Part shown: positions 6,255 through 37,005 of the stretch, in pieces | Layout of the letters: each line of letters starts with the position of its first letter | Numbering within the stretch: position 1 is the stretch's first letter | Source of the DNA: Nitrososphaerales archaeon | GTDB lineage: Archaea; Thermoproteota; Nitrososphaeria; Nitrososphaerales; JACPRH01 | Reading direction: 5' to 3' | Assembly (NCBI GenBank): GCA_030745655.1 | Contig: JASLOE010000006.1 | Location: 1 to 39,864, forward strand | DNA length: 39,864 nt | The notes under the pieces: generated by a model | Told to the model about the DNA's origin: nothing | Database searches by the model: none | The model's input: the letters and a program-made list of their open reading frames with translations, nothing else | Position numbers and translations under genes: made by a program

Positions 6255-6917
6255 TTGGCAATTCATCTCCTCGATATCTACCGAAGTAGTAATATTGGCA
6301 TCTTTTTGAAAAGTAATGAAAATCATCTATTAGTTCCACGCGGATTGGCCAAAACCAAAATAGAGAAACTGGCTGAATATCTTAGCGTCGAATCGATAGA
6401 AATTTCAATTGGAGGGTTTAGATTGCTTGGACCATTAATTGCAATGAACAATAATGGGATTTTGGTTTCAAAATTGGCAGATGAAAACGAGATTACACTT
6501 TTGAAAAAAGTAACAGGTCTTCCTGTGGAAAGATTACAATCCAAATACACATCTGTAGGAAACCTCATTTCTGCCAATGATAGAGGAGTGATTGCTTCAA
6601 CATTATTGAAAGACGTAAAAAATCAAATTGCGGATGTGCTAAACGTCCCCATTGAATTCCTTACAATAGCTTCTTTCGACAATGTCGGTGCTCTTATGGT
6701 TTCTGGGAATGTTGGTTCAGCAATTCATCCCCAAGCATCAGATGGAGAGATAACCAAAGCTACCAAGGCATTAAAAGTAGCTGTTGAACCCATAACTATC
6801 AACCGAGGATTACCATTTATCGCTTCAGGGATTATCCTATCCAAAACAAAAGCAGTTGTTGGAAGCCTTACAACTGGGCCTGAACTCATAATGTTAAGCA
6901 GGATTTTCAAGCTATGA
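6255..6917 (+). CDS. eif6: Translation initiation factor 6 (aIF6); likely TTG start at 6255 inside the listed ORF that begins at 6225
   Basis: LDIYRSSNIGIFLKSNENHLLVPRG...GNLISANDRGVIAS; eIF6 repeats. Homology appears to start at LAIHLLDIYRSSNIGIF. Confidence 0.92.
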   Translation: MAIHLLDIYRSSNIGIFLKSNENHLLVPRGLAKTKIEKLAEYLSVESIEISIGGFRLLGPLIAMNNNGILVSKLADENEITLLKKVTGLPVERLQSKYTSVGNLISANDRGVIASTLLKDVKNQIADVLNVPIEFLTIASFDNVGALMVSGNVGSAIHPQASDGEITKATKALKVAVEPITINRGLPFIASGIILSKTKAVVGSLTTGPELIMLSRIFKL

Positions 6918-6966
6918 TACAAACAGTTGGATGAGTTTAAATTTGGTGTTAGAGGGAGTCTGAGAT

Positions 6967-7389
6967 ATGAGCGAAGAAGAAAAACAACTACAAGGCCACT
7001 TATACGAGTTTAGAATGCTAGAGGAACGAATGAAAGAAATTTCAGCGCAGGGTGAAACAATAATACGAGCTCTCATTGAAACAAGGGGTGGACTATCCAC
7101 ATTAAAGGGATTGAGTATATCATCATCAACCGAAGTTCTTGTACCCATAGGAGGAGGTATTTTTGTGGATGCCAAGGCACCACCATCAGATAAATTTCTG
7201 GTTACAATTGGGGCAGATGTAATAATTGAGAAGCCAAAAGAAGATGCTTTGAAATATGTTGAAGATAGAATTAACGAGATGGAAAACGCTGTATCAGGTA
7301 TAGAGGCCCATAAAGCAGATCTTAATAGGAAGATGCTTTCTAAACGTGAATCAATAAATGAGATGATAGCAAAGCAAAAAGGTCAGTAA
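6967..7389 (+). CDS. pfdA: Prefoldin subunit alpha
   Basis: Coiled-coil N- and C-termini with central VLVPIGGGIFVDAKAPPSDKFLVTIGADVIIEK; between eIF6 and FtsY as often seen in archaea. Confidence 0.9.
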   Translation: MSEEEKQLQGHLYEFRMLEERMKEISAQGETIIRALIETRGGLSTLKGLSISSSTEVLVPIGGGIFVDAKAPPSDKFLVTIGADVIIEKPKEDALKYVEDRINEMENAVSGIEAHKADLNRKMLSKRESINEMIAKQKGQ

Positions 7390-29539: not shown

Positions 29540-32500
29540 CGATTGCTCTCTTCTTCCTCATATATTCTAACTAATGCTTTGAGAGATTTTCCGAAATATT
29601 TTAAGTATAATTCTTCACTATAAATTTCATCTATCATTGCCTGAGTTAACTCTTGTACAATATCAGGACGAATTTTTTCAAGAAACATCAAGAAATGGGC
29701 AGAAGTTTGATACGCACCTAAAGCCTTTCCTTGCTCAAAATGGGCTTTACTTCCAAGAAATGTCCCTTTAGCTTCCCTCTGGAATCCTAATTTATCTCTA
29801 ACAAAATCAGCTATACCTTCAATTAACCAGGATGTATTTTCATCATATCTAGGCGCCCACATTATTGCATGGTCAATTTCGTGAACAATTGCACCATCAT
29901 CTGCGTCTCTACTTCCATAGATTTCTGCAATTTTATCGAAATGGTCAAGGTTTATGAAGATTTTTTTTCCTTCAGTGGCTGCAGGCCATTTACAGTTTCT
30001 AGCAAAAATAACATTAAGAGCTTCCCCAGGACTTCTTCCTCCATGTATTAATCTCACTTTCGGCATCGTGTTCTCAACCAAGGAAATAACATGGGTTGCA
30101 TATCCTTTTTCAGACGGGAATCCAGAGTAATCAACCTTACAATTTTTTCCAATTAATATCGATTCTTGATTTTTAAAGAAATTAGGATTACTCCTTAGTT
30201 TTTTCTTGGCTTCTTCTTTATCTAACCCAGAAGCTAAACTTAGATAATCAAAAAAGTCCTTGCCTCCGATAATTCCTGTCCCTTTTTCCCTTATCGCCTC
30301 TACATATTCCTTGTAATCTTCAATCAGCTTCTCAAAACCTTGATTTGGAATGATTATCTTCTCAAATTTCTCATCTACTGCGATATCAATCTTACCTGAT
30401 CCTTTCTTTGGGTGAATACCACCCACTAGTCCAGCCAAACCGCTTTTCATCTCAATCTTTCCAGTCATACAGACATCTGGGCTTAGGGGTATACTCCAAA
30501 TAGCAGATGCAATTGAAACAGCAATCGCTAAACCTGCAGACGGCCCCCAAAGCTTAAGCTCTTCCCTATCAGACCCTTCTGCAGGGGAGATTATGTGAAC
30601 ATCGACATCATGATTATTTATGTTCGGGTAATACTCTCTAAGAAATTCAACTGCAATTTTCGCACTTTCCTTTACAGATTCCGTTACTGTCCCCAATATA
30701 AGCATGTTTTCACCTCTTTTTGAGCGTGGAAAAACATTAGATTCAACTATTATTATTAATCCACGACGTTCATCTTCACTTTCAGCAGCTGCTAATCCAT
30801 AAGATTTCCCTATCTCAGGTCCCGTTCCTCTGTAAATCCTTTGCATTTCTTTCAGTTCATCAAAGTCCTCACTTTTCAGTGCCATCTCAAAAGCTCTTTC
30901 TAAATGATGTAAGGTCAATGGGTATGACATCGAATCATGAAATGCTGCAGCTACTTTCTTAAACAGAGATTTAATTTTTATTTTCTTAACCTTTGCCAGA
31001 TTCTCAAGATAGGTAAGTTGCTCTCCATAATTCTTCCGAATTGAAGCATTTTTTTCGCTATCATTTTTCTTTAAAGCTGAAAGAATTTCTTGACTGGCAA
31101 CAACCTCCTTTGTGCGTTCAGCTACCGCTGACCTCATCGTATATGCAACTACCCTTGGAGAGAATGTTCGCTGTAAGAATATTTTCATAACTTCATCAAT
31201 AGTTACATCTTTAGACAAGAATGATTCTATTTTTCTAAGATGTACCTCAATGATTTCTCGTCTTTCTTCAGCATTCTTAGGATAAGGGAATTCCACAGAG
31301 AGAAGTCGATTAAGCAACGCCTCATCAATGATGTCTTTTCTATTGGTAATTCCAATAAATAGTACATTCCCACCACCTGATTTCAGACCTTCCAATTCGC
31401 TCAGTAATATCGTTGTGGCTGGTGCATGTACAGGGTCGCCAAGTCGGGATCCTCTTCTCACTGCTACAGCATCAATTTCATCCCAGATTATAATACTGGG
31501 TGATTCCTTCCTAGCCTCGCTGAATATTCTTCTAATATTTCTTTCCGTCTCTCCAACCTCTTTCTGATAAACCTCAGAACCACTTACCACTCTGATTTTC
31601 GTCCCTTCTTCTCCTGCTATAGCCTTCGCCAACAATGTCTTACCTGAACCTGGGGGACCAAAAAATAGAAAACCTATGGGCGGTTCATACCCTAATTGAG
31701 TAGCCAATTCTGGGTTTAAAGAGGCCTTAATCTCAGTTATCACTTTTCCAATTACATCATGTAAACCACCAACATCGCGATACCTCTCTGTAGGTTTAGT
31801 GAATTGTCGTGTCTCTTTAACCATAGTAGAGACCTCTTCTTCTGTATAGGCAGCTACATCAGGAGCGACAGAGACGAAATCATCTATAGTTGGTTTTGGA
31901 ATTGAAACAACATTTCTTTTTTTAATCCTCTTTCGGAAAGATTCTCTAAAGGGTGCTTGCACTTTATTTGTTGCTAATATGAAAGCTTTGTTAATATCCG
32001 AAGGTGTTAAATCACTCTTACCAAGAGTTCTTAATGATTGTGATAGTGCATGAAATAGCTTTTTTGGATTTACATTAAGACCAATTTTCTTGTTCCTTCT
32101 TCTGCAAATTTCAATTAGCGACTCTTCCTTCATTTCGTTTAGGTTTATCCTTTCAGCTATCAATCTGAGTGATTCAGGGATATTTGCAAAATTATTTGTT
32201 GAAAGAAGAGCCACCCCCCTTATCGGATTATCTTTCAAATGTTCTAATGACCTCTCTAAAGCTTCACCGATTCTTCGGCTTTCCCTATCAATATCTCCAC
32301 TAATACCTTGACTTTTTTCTGAAAATGCCTGCGCCTGTTCTATAAAAATCAAAGTAGGATTAGAAAAGATAGAATTCATTTTATTTTCAAGTTGTTTTTC
32401 AGAAACACCCATAAGCCATGATGAAATATCAGATGATTTCAGTGTTTCAGGAATAACTTTAATACCCTCTTTAACACCTCGCTCTAATGCTTCTCTCTGA

Positions 32501-32898
32501 ATTGCTTTAGCGAGAAATTTCTTTCCCCATCCAGGATCGCTTTCAAGAATAAAGATTTTCGGTGGAGGAGTCGCATACATCTTGGCGAATTTAGGATCGT
32601 CATCCTGTAAACGTAATATATGGTAATCTATTGAATCGATTAGAATTGAAATAATATCTCCTCGTCCAACAACCTGGTCTAAAGATATATCTGGAAATCT
32701 TGGATCAATGCTGAATTTCTTTGCCCAGTTTTCTGCTTTTTTAATGCGTTTTTTCCGTGAAAGCTTCCGAAATCTATATGCACGATAGTCTTTGCTTATG
32801 AGTAGAAGTGGAAAATGAAAAATAATCCTGAGCCATCTTCTTCTTCCCCAGAGAAATTGTGAAAATTGAACTTCATCGCTGAGTAACTCATCAGCCAT
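29536..32898 (-). CDS. Fusion protein: degenerate AAA module + AAA+ ATPase + Lon-type Ser/Lys protease + C-terminal basic-secretory-protein-like HExxH domain
   Basis: AAA2: GPPGSGKTLLAKAIAGEEG, IIIWDEID. Lon: LWGPSAGLAIAVSIASAIWSIPLSPDVCMTGKIEMKSGLAGLVGGIHPKKG. C-terminus: DDGAIVHEIDHAIMWAPRYDENTSWLIEGIADFVRDKLGF. Confidence 0.85.
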   Translation of the reverse strand: MADELLSDEVQFSQFLWGRRRWLRIIFHFPLLLISKDYRAYRFRKLSRKKRIKKAENWAKKFSIDPRFPDISLDQVVGRGDIISILIDSIDYHILRLQDDDPKFAKMYATPPPKIFILESDPGWGKKFLAKAIQREALERGVKEGIKVIPETLKSSDISSWLMGVSEKQLENKMNSIFSNPTLIFIEQAQAFSEKSQGISGDIDRESRRIGEALERSLEHLKDNPIRGVALLSTNNFANIPESLRLIAERINLNEMKEESLIEICRRRNKKIGLNVNPKKLFHALSQSLRTLGKSDLTPSDINKAFILATNKVQAPFRESFRKRIKKRNVVSIPKPTIDDFVSVAPDVAAYTEEEVSTMVKETRQFTKPTERYRDVGGLHDVIGKVITEIKASLNPELATQLGYEPPIGFLFFGPPGSGKTLLAKAIAGEEGTKIRVVSGSEVYQKEVGETERNIRRIFSEARKESPSIIIWDEIDAVAVRRGSRLGDPVHAPATTILLSELEGLKSGGGNVLFIGITNRKDIIDEALLNRLLSVEFPYPKNAEERREIIEVHLRKIESFLSKDVTIDEVMKIFLQRTFSPRVVAYTMRSAVAERTKEVVASQEILSALKKNDSEKNASIRKNYGEQLTYLENLAKVKKIKIKSLFKKVAAAFHDSMSYPLTLHHLERAFEMALKSEDFDELKEMQRIYRGTGPEIGKSYGLAAAESEDERRGLIIIVESNVFPRSKRGENMLILGTVTESVKESAKIAVEFLREYYPNINNHDVDVHIISPAEGSDREELKLWGPSAGLAIAVSIASAIWSIPLSPDVCMTGKIEMKSGLAGLVGGIHPKKGSGKIDIAVDEKFEKIIIPNQGFEKLIEDYKEYVEAIREKGTGIIGGKDFFDYLSLASGLDKEEAKKKLRSNPNFFKNQESILIGKNCKVDYSGFPSEKGYATHVISLVENTMPKVRLIHGGRSPGEALNVIFARNCKWPAATEGKKIFINLDHFDKIAEIYGSRDADDGAIVHEIDHAIMWAPRYDENTSWLIEGIADFVRDKLGFQREAKGTFLGSKAHFEQGKALGAYQTSAHFLMFLEKIRPDIVQELTQAMIDEIYSEELYLKYFGKSLKALVRIYEEEESNR

Positions 32899-32904
32899 TT
32901 TTCA

Positions 32905-34230
32905 TCAAATTCCAATTCGTCGAACTACTTCTCCAAGTATGAAAATGATGAGTAGAATCACTAAGAAAGGCCACCATTGTTTCATCATCCCAAGTGAAAG
33001 AGTCCCACGCTTCCATTTGTCATAAATTATTGAACCTATAAAACCAATAATATAAATAGAAATTAATCCAATAATATACCAAATATTGGGAAGAATATAA
33101 TTAATCCACCCCTCATGCATTACCGCCAAGGCTAGCATAGCTGTGTTTGGTGGAGCCCAAACTCCCTTCTGATCTACGAGTTGGATCTGGGTTCCAGATT
33201 TTGATGTCCAGAACTTTGTAAGAAAACCTGATTCCTTGTCATAAGTGTATGCAGAACTACAGCCTCCACCATCACAATCGTCGAATGCAACAACAAATTT
33301 TCTGTAAGTATGCTGAAGAATAATAGGATCTGGCTGGTCATCATTTGGTAATTCTTCATTTATTACGGCTTGAACATCAGGATATATAGGATCGCCTTTA
33401 GCCAGTCCGGAAGTAACAACAAAATATTTGAAAAAACCTGAGCCATGGTTTATTGGTTGATCGGTCTCGAAATTTCTCAATAATATAGTTCTATCTGATT
33501 CACCATCATAGATGATGCTAATCTTAGATATTTTTCCTCTATCAAGCTCATCCTGTGGGATTGTGTTAAAGTTGAACAACTCTTTCTTGTCCCATATAAT
33601 GAACTTAGATTTTCTTGGCTCATTCACATCAAAATCAATAGGAAAAAATTTGCTTTTTCCGGTAGTGTCAGTCATCCAAATAGTATATCTTTCGCCTTCA
33701 GATAGACCATTAATTGAAATAAAATAGTAGAAGTATGACACGTCCCATATATCTAAAGGTTCTTGGAATGAATATTCCATTTCAGCATAACCATCTTTTG
33801 GAATCATATTTATCTCGAGGTGATCATCAATTACGCTGATTGTGTTAGTTCCGTGAGTTGATGTCCATCCTTCATCTTGATTTGTTGGAAGAATGATAGT
33901 CTTTTCACTACTACCAATATTTATTGTGATAATTTCTTCATTTACGTTTCCATTATAGTAGTTAGAAATAGTATTTAGCTTAACTAAATTACCTTCCACA
34001 TCTACTACTGTCACAATAGCATCCTTGATATCGGGGTAGTGTAAGAACTCATATTTCACCTCCATGCCTGGTTTAAGTCCAGGTTGATAAGTGACCGCAA
34101 AAGCCGAAATAAAGATAATAGTGGAGACTAAAATGATAATAAGAATAGGATTCATAATAAATAGTCCTTTTTTTATTATTGGTAGTCTCAATTCTTCTCT
34201 ACTGTAATAAATGAGACCGAATTTTCTCAT
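32905..34230 (-). CDS. Predicted membrane-anchored protein with large extracytoplasmic domain, function unknown
   Basis: N-terminal TM ILIIILVSTIIFISAFAV, long hydrophilic middle, two C-terminal TM helices (WYIIGLISIYIIGFIGSII; WWPFLVILLIIFILGEVV). Ends 6 bp before the AAA-Lon gene. Confidence 0.8.
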   Translation of the reverse strand: MRKFGLIYYSREELRLPIIKKGLFIMNPILIIILVSTIIFISAFAVTYQPGLKPGMEVKYEFLHYPDIKDAIVTVVDVEGNLVKLNTISNYYNGNVNEEIITINIGSSEKTIILPTNQDEGWTSTHGTNTISVIDDHLEINMIPKDGYAEMEYSFQEPLDIWDVSYFYYFISINGLSEGERYTIWMTDTTGKSKFFPIDFDVNEPRKSKFIIWDKKELFNFNTIPQDELDRGKISKISIIYDGESDRTILLRNFETDQPINHGSGFFKYFVVTSGLAKGDPIYPDVQAVINEELPNDDQPDPIILQHTYRKFVVAFDDCDGGGCSSAYTYDKESGFLTKFWTSKSGTQIQLVDQKGVWAPPNTAMLALAVMHEGWINYILPNIWYIIGLISIYIIGFIGSIIYDKWKRGTLSLGMMKQWWPFLVILLIIFILGEVVRRIGI

Positions 34231-34317: not shown

Positions 34318-37005
34318 CTAGAAATCTATTCGTAATGTGATGATCTGAGAACGATTTAATTTGAATAGAATTCTGTGTTCTAGTATATCTATATTTTTTT
34401 CTGAATCTTTACTTTCTTTCTCATTGAGATTTACAATAGAGGCATTCAATATTTTTTTATGACTGTGTACTTCTACTTCAGTTTTTTTTGATTCAGGATT
34501 GTAGATTCTTAATATGAGGCTTTGACTTAGTTCTCGTCTTTTAATAGCGGAAATAATTAACGATTCCGGCTTTATTTTTAAGAATGAAAATTCTGGAGGA
34601 AAAGATCCTTTATGCTGAGAAGTGGGGGTTACAATCAAAGGTGTATTGTGGTTGTATGCGTCTTGCCATACTTTATTCTGATTCCAATCACCTTCATGAA
34701 TTACAAGGGAATATTTGAATTCATGTCTCCCAAGGCATTGAGCATCGGGTGTTGCAAGATGGGGGTAAAGTCGGGGTCCTGCTCTTCCCTTCCTTGTCAG
34801 GAGATCATCACGACTTAACCAACCAACACATCGAAGAAGTGACAACAAAATGGAAGAACCTTTCTCAGTATGAATAGCCTCATATTCCGGTAATCCTTGA
34901 TTGATTAGAGTCAAACCTTTTTCATCATCATTAATACTCACAAACGATTGTTGCGGTTTGGTTGTAGAAGGTGATTCTTTCCAATTAGTTGCAGGTGGAG
35001 GAACGATTGGTCTTTGAATAACATCAAATGCACTTTCAGCATAAGTGTAGTTAGTTACTATATCTGTTGGAAAAATGACTCTTAATCGATGATCTTTTAC
35101 ACGATTATTGAAAATCGTTCTAAAATCGATTCGCCTTATCTTTGGATAAAGAGTTACAAAACTTTGGAGTAAACAGTTAACAAGTTTATCGCTTCGAGTA
35201 GTTCTATCTATAGAAATCTCTTTTGGTAATTTCAACTGTATTTCTATTTTGAGAGTAATAGAAACTGGATTATCATCAAGAACTGATACATTCGCTATAC
35301 AATTTTTAGTTGTGATTTTATTTGAGGTCCTAGCGGGTGAGAAGTTATATTCATCACCCACATCTTCCACGTCCTCAAAAAGAAGAACATCATCAAACAT
35401 AACATTTGTAGGTTTATAGATAATCTTCAACGTCCCATTTATGTTAGATGTTATATGGAAGTATTCATTTTCTATAAAATCCTTGTTCCCTTTCAATGTG
35501 GATGATAAGCATTTATTTTGATTAGATGAAGTAAGATAATAGATTTTATATCCAAAAGCAGGAATCTCTTCCGCCAAAAAAGAAACCTTAACTTTTACAG
35601 GTTTCTCCTTTTTAGATTCTGTTGGTCTACTTATATTTGTAAGAGCCCTCTTCTTTTTTTTATCTAAAACATAATAATTGGAGGTAATATTTTCTATATT
35701 TGGTACAGATAGATTAATACTTACAGACTCGTTACGAATCCAATTTAGAGTGTTAAAGACAATTATTGGAATGGAATCAGGGTTTGAAAAAGTAGTATCG
35801 ATCTTTTTATTGAGATAATTGATTGAATTGCAGGAGATATTTTGAGATATCTGAAGAGATCTGATGAAACGGTTGACAACATCTCGATGAACTGCGTCAA
35901 TGTAACAGCCACAAATGCTGTCATGAAATTGTGATTGAAGAAGATATTTCCAAGCCATCCAAATATTACGTTCTGGATATTCAAGTCCTTCCAACCAAGC
36001 TAGTGCTGCTAATGGTTCAGCGATTTTCTCTAACTTGGTTTGTGTCCTTTCATTATATTTTTTAATGGTCATCCGAGTAGATAGCACACTGTAAAGCATA
36101 AACCAGTATTTAGCTGCACGGAGCTCGCCTTCATAAATATCTAACTTGGGTTTACTGGCTACTATTTTTTTGATAAGATTCTCGAAATTACTATGTATTA
36201 CTTTTGCATCCACCATATTATCATTTAAGTATTTTATAATTGATGGTATTTCTGGCTGTGGTTCAAAAAAGTCTTCACCATTATTTAGGAGAAGATATTT
36301 GGTTCTAGCATATTTGGAAAGAATTAATTTATTATGATTTACAGATTCAAGAGCTTTTTGTAGATTTAATTGATTCTTACTAACTCCAAATTCATCAGGG
36401 TTTTCATATCCCAAAGCAGAAGTTGACATATATCCACCTATCTGATGAATTGCTAAAACGTCGCTTCCATCCGGTGCTTTCCAGATAAACTCTGACCCTA
36501 ATTTCTCTCCTTCATCACCCAATCCTCTTGAGAATACTGCCGAATCAAGATTGAAGCCTCTGAGAATCTGTGGAAGTTGAGAGATATGGCCGAATTGGTC
36601 CGGCATATAACCTACTTTCATCGCCCGTCCAAATCGTGCAATTATTTTATATCCCAGCATTAAATTTCTTATCAGTGACTCACCACTAACTAAAAATTCA
36701 TCAGAAGCAATATACCAAGGACCAATGAAAATCTTTTTCTGAGTAATTAGTTTTCTTAATAACATCTCTTTTTCTGGATGTATTTCTAAATAATCTTCCA
36801 AAATAACTGCTTGACCATCTAAGATAAAAAATCGATAATCTGGGTTTGAATCCAGTAACAAGAGTAACTTATCGATTATTTTCACTAATTTTGTTCTGGA
36901 ATCATTAAATGTACGATACCATTCCCTATCCCAATGGATATGTGAAACTAAATGCATTTCATATGGATCTCTCACCACTGAATTTCGTTTGATATGACTA
37001 ACCAT
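34318..37005 (-). CDS. Alpha-mannosidase, glycoside hydrolase family 38-like
   Basis: MHLVSHIHWDREWYRTF, KVGYMPDQFGHISQLPQILRGFNLDSAVFSRGLG; QSQFHDSICGCYIDAVHRDV; GH38 motifs. Confidence 0.92.
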   Translation of the reverse strand: MVSHIKRNSVVRDPYEMHLVSHIHWDREWYRTFNDSRTKLVKIIDKLLLLLDSNPDYRFFILDGQAVILEDYLEIHPEKEMLLRKLITQKKIFIGPWYIASDEFLVSGESLIRNLMLGYKIIARFGRAMKVGYMPDQFGHISQLPQILRGFNLDSAVFSRGLGDEGEKLGSEFIWKAPDGSDVLAIHQIGGYMSTSALGYENPDEFGVSKNQLNLQKALESVNHNKLILSKYARTKYLLLNNGEDFFEPQPEIPSIIKYLNDNMVDAKVIHSNFENLIKKIVASKPKLDIYEGELRAAKYWFMLYSVLSTRMTIKKYNERTQTKLEKIAEPLAALAWLEGLEYPERNIWMAWKYLLQSQFHDSICGCYIDAVHRDVVNRFIRSLQISQNISCNSINYLNKKIDTTFSNPDSIPIIVFNTLNWIRNESVSINLSVPNIENITSNYYVLDKKKKRALTNISRPTESKKEKPVKVKVSFLAEEIPAFGYKIYYLTSSNQNKCLSSTLKGNKDFIENEYFHITSNINGTLKIIYKPTNVMFDDVLLFEDVEDVGDEYNFSPARTSNKITTKNCIANVSVLDDNPVSITLKIEIQLKLPKEISIDRTTRSDKLVNCLLQSFVTLYPKIRRIDFRTIFNNRVKDHRLRVIFPTDIVTNYTYAESAFDVIQRPIVPPPATNWKESPSTTKPQQSFVSINDDEKGLTLINQGLPEYEAIHTEKGSSILLSLLRCVGWLSRDDLLTRKGRAGPRLYPHLATPDAQCLGRHEFKYSLVIHEGDWNQNKVWQDAYNHNTPLIVTPTSQHKGSFPPEFSFLKIKPESLIISAIKRRELSQSLILRIYNPESKKTEVEVHSHKKILNASIVNLNEKESKDSEKNIDILEHRILFKLNRSQIITLRIDF

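Follow-up and report, generated by a model that had tools for sequence, protein, structure and literature searches.

What is the role of a membrane protein that belongs to no recognised family and is encoded immediately upstream of an ATP-dependent protease? The question is posed by a locus of a Nitrososphaerales archaeon, which we analysed in a stretch of 39,864 nucleotides, referred to below as the window. The window belongs to a 0.90-Mb MAG whose nearest named relative is ETNP2_MAG_84, the MAG of a Nitrososphaerales archaeon. An earlier note on this DNA had proposed that the two genes form a two-gene system, in which the membrane protein would act as a membrane anchor, a substrate adaptor or a sensor for the protease.

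The membrane protein gene

As an ORF, the membrane protein gene (P0001; 32905..34230, minus strand) encodes 441 aa. A spacer of 6 bp separates its end from the ATG of the protease gene (P0002; 29536..32898, minus strand; 1120 aa), which follows on the same strand and at the distance that the earlier note had given. The junction reads ...GGAATTTGA-TGAAAA-ATGGCT. Compared with the nearest relative, codon positions 1, 2 and 3 of the ORF differed by 0.147, 0.110 and 0.354, respectively, and the protein shared 76, 67 and 59% identity with its orthologues in three other genomes. The codon-position differences, together with the conservation of the protein, indicate that the ORF is protein-coding. 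Searches of Pfam and NCBIfam yielded no family for the protein, in agreement with the earlier note, and a sequence search of the PDB was likewise empty.

Translation probably does not begin at 34230. In a related genome, G001, the upstream frame equivalent to the 5' end of the ORF contains a stop codon and the equivalent of the 34230 ATG is out of frame, which casts doubt on this start. The coding sequence probably starts at a conserved TTG at 34191, which would yield a protein of 428 aa, or at the ATG at 34155. The 34230 ATG falls within a conserved CTTTATATG stretch that appears to resemble an archaeal TATA box.

The topology of the protein agreed in large part with that described earlier. 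An extracytoplasmic region of about 330 residues (about residues 46-380) is followed by two hydrophobic segments corresponding to the two C-terminal transmembrane helices, the first at about residues 381-403 (33022..33090, minus strand) and the last at about residues 419-436 (32923..32976, minus strand). The helices are joined by a short, nearly invariant basic loop, DKWKRGTLSLGMMKQ (32977..33021, minus strand), predicted to be cytoplasmic according to the positive-inside rule. The hydrophobic segment at the N-terminus is also present, but it is probably not the transmembrane helix that the earlier note described. More specifically, an AxA pattern immediately before Y48-QPG occurs in all four orthologues (AFA, AYA, ADA and AQA), with A43 and A45 invariant. 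Because such a pattern is characteristic of cleaved signal peptides, the segment (34096..34155, minus strand; residues 26-45) is probably better read as a cleavable signal peptide; if it is cleaved, the mature protein would have two membrane helices rather than three. The cysteine-containing patch singled out in the earlier note is likewise present, as DDCDGGGCSSA (33250..33282, minus strand; residues 317-327). Neither of its cysteines, C319 and C324, varies among the four orthologues, so that a disulfide or a metal site is conceivable.

The protease

According to Pfam, the protease comprises two AAA domains, a Lon_C peptidase domain and a BSP peptidase domain. Its N-terminus carries a motif, W..rrrwLRiifh.PLLL.s.dYRayR (32767..32850, minus strand), that is conserved in all lineages; the form common to all is WW..r..LR.if.PLyl.s..YR.WR. 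This motif may serve for docking or lie close to the membrane. The first AAA domain (31999..32601, minus strand) of the window's family, f1, has a degenerate Walker A (DPGWGKK) and Walker B (FIEQAQ). The Ser/Thr of Walker A and the DE pair of Walker B have been lost in f1 only, these motifs being intact in all other sampled lineages. The second AAA domain (30979..31803, minus strand) has an intact Walker A (GPPGSGKT) and Walker B (IIIWDE), and its Walker motifs are invariant across the aligned relatives.

The Lon (S16) peptidase domain (30184..30831, minus strand) possesses a Ser-Lys dyad, S787/K836, of which the serine (in GPSAG) and the lysine (in GKI) are both retained in all 38 relatives aligned. 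In the AAA-AAA-Lon group, comprising the window's protein and its relatives, the catalytic lysine is preceded by an insertion, giving GG.xxRG.GK as opposed to the usual GGxxEK. The C-terminal, BSP metallopeptidase-like domain (29563..30006, minus strand) contains the sequences HEIDH, beginning at residue 1006, and EGIAD, beginning at residue 1027. In G002, BSP is encoded by a separate ORF (L037 7645-8295, minus strand) located just downstream of the AAA-AAA-Lon gene and overlapping its end; it is fused in the other three f1 genomes.

Comparison with known proteases

We compared the system with four known groups. It resembles FtsH and the mitochondrial m-/i-AAA proteases in that an AAA protease would be held at the membrane and a small extracytoplasmic domain lies between membrane helices, and the AAA part of the protease scores against FtsH models. 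In FtsH, however, a single chain combines the helices with one AAA domain and an M41 zinc protease, whereas in the present system a separate gene encodes the membrane part and the protease has two AAA domains and a Lon (S16) domain. The chain of the latter contains no N-terminal pair of membrane helices, S16 takes the place of M41, and the score of 129 bits is to be set against a cut-off of 600.

The likeness to archaeal LonB, which has a presumed role in membrane protein quality control (PMC4343526, PMC9263693), consists of an AAA-driven Lon S16 peptidase with a Ser-Lys dyad and of the membrane placement that we propose here. By contrast, LonB has a single LonB-type AAA domain with internal membrane segments in place of two classic-clade AAA domains and a partner gene. 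The protease yielded no match to LonB_AAA-LID, contained no inserted helices and scored 57 against a cut-off of 517.

Tandem classic-clade AAA domains are shared with the CDC48/VCP-like archaeal ATPase (VAT). CDC48 provided the best full-length model match of the protease, and its best solved relatives were VCP-like ATPases. Unlike CDC48, the protease has a Lon peptidase fused at its C-terminus; a double-psi N-domain was not detected in it, and it scored 178 bits against a cut-off of 803. Finally, its C-terminal domain in f1, which has an HExxH motif, matches the BSP peptidase family PF04450, the difference being that this domain is fused to an AAA-Lon protein rather than stand-alone. As judged from these sequence features, the system would work like a membrane AAA protease, yet it is not a member of the FtsH, LonB or CDC48 groups, since defining features of each were looked for and were not found.

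Pairing of the two genes across the phylum

We then considered whether homologues of the two genes are neighbours elsewhere, the earlier note having named their separation in related genomes as a refutation of its proposal; the proposal passed this test. Both genes are adjacent and co-oriented in four of the five f1 genomes (G000, G001, G002 and G003) and neither occurs in the fifth (G004), such that they are neighbours in 4/4 of the f1 genomes holding either gene. Across the order, the f1-type partner was confined to the 4 genomes with the f1-type protease, and the partner type of a second family, f8, to the 5 genomes with the f8-type protease. One additional weak f8-type match (E 1e-4) fell in one of the same five genomes.

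The phylum was searched using a profile of the Lon domain (A4), a query that is blind to the membrane protein. This profile identified an AAA-AAA-Lon protein of 900-930 aa in f8, f24 and many other families. Together with the window, L035-L042 and L057, 37 of the phylum matches with a readable 5' side (L078-L114) provided 47 loci. A membrane-protein gene was adjacent to the protease gene in all 47, which represent about 15 archaeal families, loci of the same family not being independent of each other. The partner was co-oriented with the protease in 40 loci and divergent in the remaining seven, all of which belong to f29. Among the 40 same-strand loci, one with a truncated protease start, the two genes mostly lay within about 40 bp of each other or had an overlap of at most about 50 bp, with longer gaps in a few loci. 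At locus L082, a second, tandem partner copy (6344-7135, minus strand; profile E 3e-66) lies directly upstream of the first.

The design shared by the partners is a signal peptide, then an ectodomain and, at the C-terminus, two or three membrane helices. We expressed this as a rule, namely an N-terminal hydrophobic segment, a long gap and then hydrophobic segments near the C-terminus only. This arrangement was found in 42 of the 47 partners versus about 7 of 375 other ORFs of the same loci (10/378 as counted, three of the ten being unlisted f29 partners). No neighbour of this design was found at two control loci of LonB. The genes flanking the pair varied between families, indicating that the pairing is not merely inherited gene order. 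Overall, these data strongly support the proposed two-gene system: the f1 genes are present or absent together, and a neighbour of the same design occurs in every one of the readable loci. We infer that the membrane protein and protease genes are co-transcribed, an arrangement that is not universal given the seven divergent loci.

Sequence differences among the partners

At least five groups of partners could be distinguished, which share hardly any or no recognisable sequence similarity. In profile comparisons, the window's partner showed no similarity to those of other lineages (hhalign probability at most 0.5), while the f8 and f34-type partners matched over the ectodomain with 62% probability. 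As the window's protein has no detectable homology to the partners of other lineages by this method, we do not claim one common partner family, and the equivalence of those partners rests on position and topology. The partner groups fit the protease clades with the smallest possible number of changes, 4. Conservation of position and topology in the face of divergent sequence would fit either extreme divergence or replacement.

Some partners consist of the membrane part only. In f41, they are 124-134 aa long and have no ectodomain, nor was a separate ectodomain gene found beside them. In G052, a partner membrane part, recognised by its match to the f27-type profile (E 5e-17), is joined in frame to the protease at the latter's N-terminal motif, again without an ectodomain. 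The fused ORF (L043, G052 contig 87, 2-1609, minus strand) encodes this membrane part followed by AAA-AAA-Lon. The fusion could be natural or could reflect a frameshift of assembly or sequencing: its only example lies on one MAG contig that is truncated, and partner and protease genes overlap in its closest relative. Since the ectodomain is missing from the f41 lineage and from the fused form, anchoring appears to be the core function of the partner.

Predicted fold of the ectodomain

The AlphaFold model of the full-length membrane protein was poor (pLDDT 48), too poor for a structure search. Residues 108-264 modelled alone (33439..33909, minus strand) gave a beta-sandwich of moderate confidence from three sequences (pLDDT 66, pTM 0.68). 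The Foldseek search of the extracytoplasmic domain suggested in the earlier note was run on these residues and matched the CBM-like domain of GH50 agarases in the PDB with an E value of 2.7e-6 and a TM-score of about 0.6 at best. Consistent with this placement, Pfam returned a weak match to Agarase_CBM in one orthologue (E 0.023). The likeness to the Agarase_CBM of GH50 agarases lies in the predicted fold and this weak match; the difference is that sequence identity with the membrane protein is 18% or less. Unlike in the agarases, there was no sign of a glycoside hydrolase in the membrane protein. The model suggests that the ectodomain may recognise a glycan or glycoprotein at the cell surface. 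A GH38 alpha-mannosidase gene lies just upstream of the membrane protein ORF (34318-37005 of the window, minus strand) and is also present in G001 and G002. A link of this neighbour and the CBM-like ectodomain to surface glycans is conceivable.

Role of the membrane protein

We consider it likely that the ATP-dependent protease is membrane-bound and split over two genes, with the membrane protein as its anchor and receptor subunit. Among the roles put forward in the earlier note, that of membrane anchor is the best supported, the f41 partners and the fused form having retained the membrane part only; a role of the ectodomain as a substrate adaptor or sensor is possible. In the mechanism that we propose, the two C-terminal helices would hold the complex in the membrane. 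The basic loop, if cytoplasmic as predicted, would bind the protease by its conserved N-terminal motif and park it on the inner face, which presumes that partner and protease physically interact. The AAA-AAA-Lon protein would work as a hexamer, whose CDC48-like motor would pull membrane or tail-exposed substrates into the Lon chamber. Trimming of the products may fall to the BSP metallopeptidase that is fused in f1. The domain on the secreted side, enlarged in f1 by the CBM-like sandwich, would sense or select substrates, for example misfolded or, through putative glycan recognition, glycosylated envelope proteins.

An alternative, which we regard as unlikely, assigns the membrane protein a sensory or regulatory role, with the ectodomain detecting an envelope signal and toggling the protease beyond merely holding it at the membrane. 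A large, secreted and lineage-variable ectodomain with a carbohydrate-binding-like fold in f1 would be in keeping with such a role, but the f41 partners and the fused form dispense with the ectodomain, so sensing is not the conserved core. Somewhat less probable still is that the protease is the dedicated quality-control or processing enzyme of the membrane protein, which would then be its client and not a co-subunit. Strict one-to-one pairing would also be expected of an enzyme and its dedicated substrate, and secreted clients evolve fast. The in-frame fusion and the members reduced to the membrane part are nevertheless a better match for a subunit.

That the two genes are neighbours by chance, or passively through inherited gene order only, is largely refuted and in our judgement very improbable. 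Within f1, the flanking genes, encoding GH38 and a 2-hydroxyacid dehydrogenase, are partly conserved as well, as passive inheritance would have it. Yet the pair persists in other families in spite of different flanking genes, adjacency is retained in f29 with the orientation inverted, and the two LonB loci inspected lack such a neighbour.

Distribution of LonB and significance of the pair

According to a review, the ATP-dependent proteases of archaea are the proteasome and membrane LonB only, with LonB probably filling in for FtsH, which archaea lack (PMC4343526). In the order, no LonB match over the model cut-off was obtained in any of 61 genomes, nor in any of the 398 genomes of the phylum. 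As the cut-off was reached by none, strong matches below it were counted as LonB in the phylum set. Strong LonB (28) and AAA-AAA-Lon (42) never occurred together in the 398 genomes (p = 0.039, uncorrected for shared ancestry), making strict mutual exclusion of the two weakly significant. A looser LonB-like form coexists with AAA-AAA-Lon in family f79. A second LonB-like form of about 800-840 aa, which falls well short of the LonB cut-off (E about 1e-40 to 1e-50), was observed in G045, G052, G029, G009, G023, G020 as well as in many genomes across the phylum; it may constitute a LonB subfamily of its own.

We found no description of the AAA-AAA-Lon protein or of its partner in the titles, abstracts and passages covered, a body of literature with few subscription journals and preprints. 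On balance, we favour the view that a class of membrane ATP-dependent protease not described so far is at work in many lineages of the phylum. In it, a CDC48-type double ring would be fused to a Lon chamber and a separately encoded, fast-evolving membrane receptor would serve as the anchor; the class would substitute for the LonB of other archaea and the FtsH of bacteria. For an order without full-score LonB in the searched genomes, a two-gene protease with its own anchor is a testable candidate for the destruction of bad membrane proteins. The pair would also illustrate how a protease can evolve with its membrane part as a separate subunit, whose sequence changes until it is no longer recognisable although position and shape are retained. 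If the partner does anchor the protease, many archaea would have at the membrane a protease whose architecture departs from those known.
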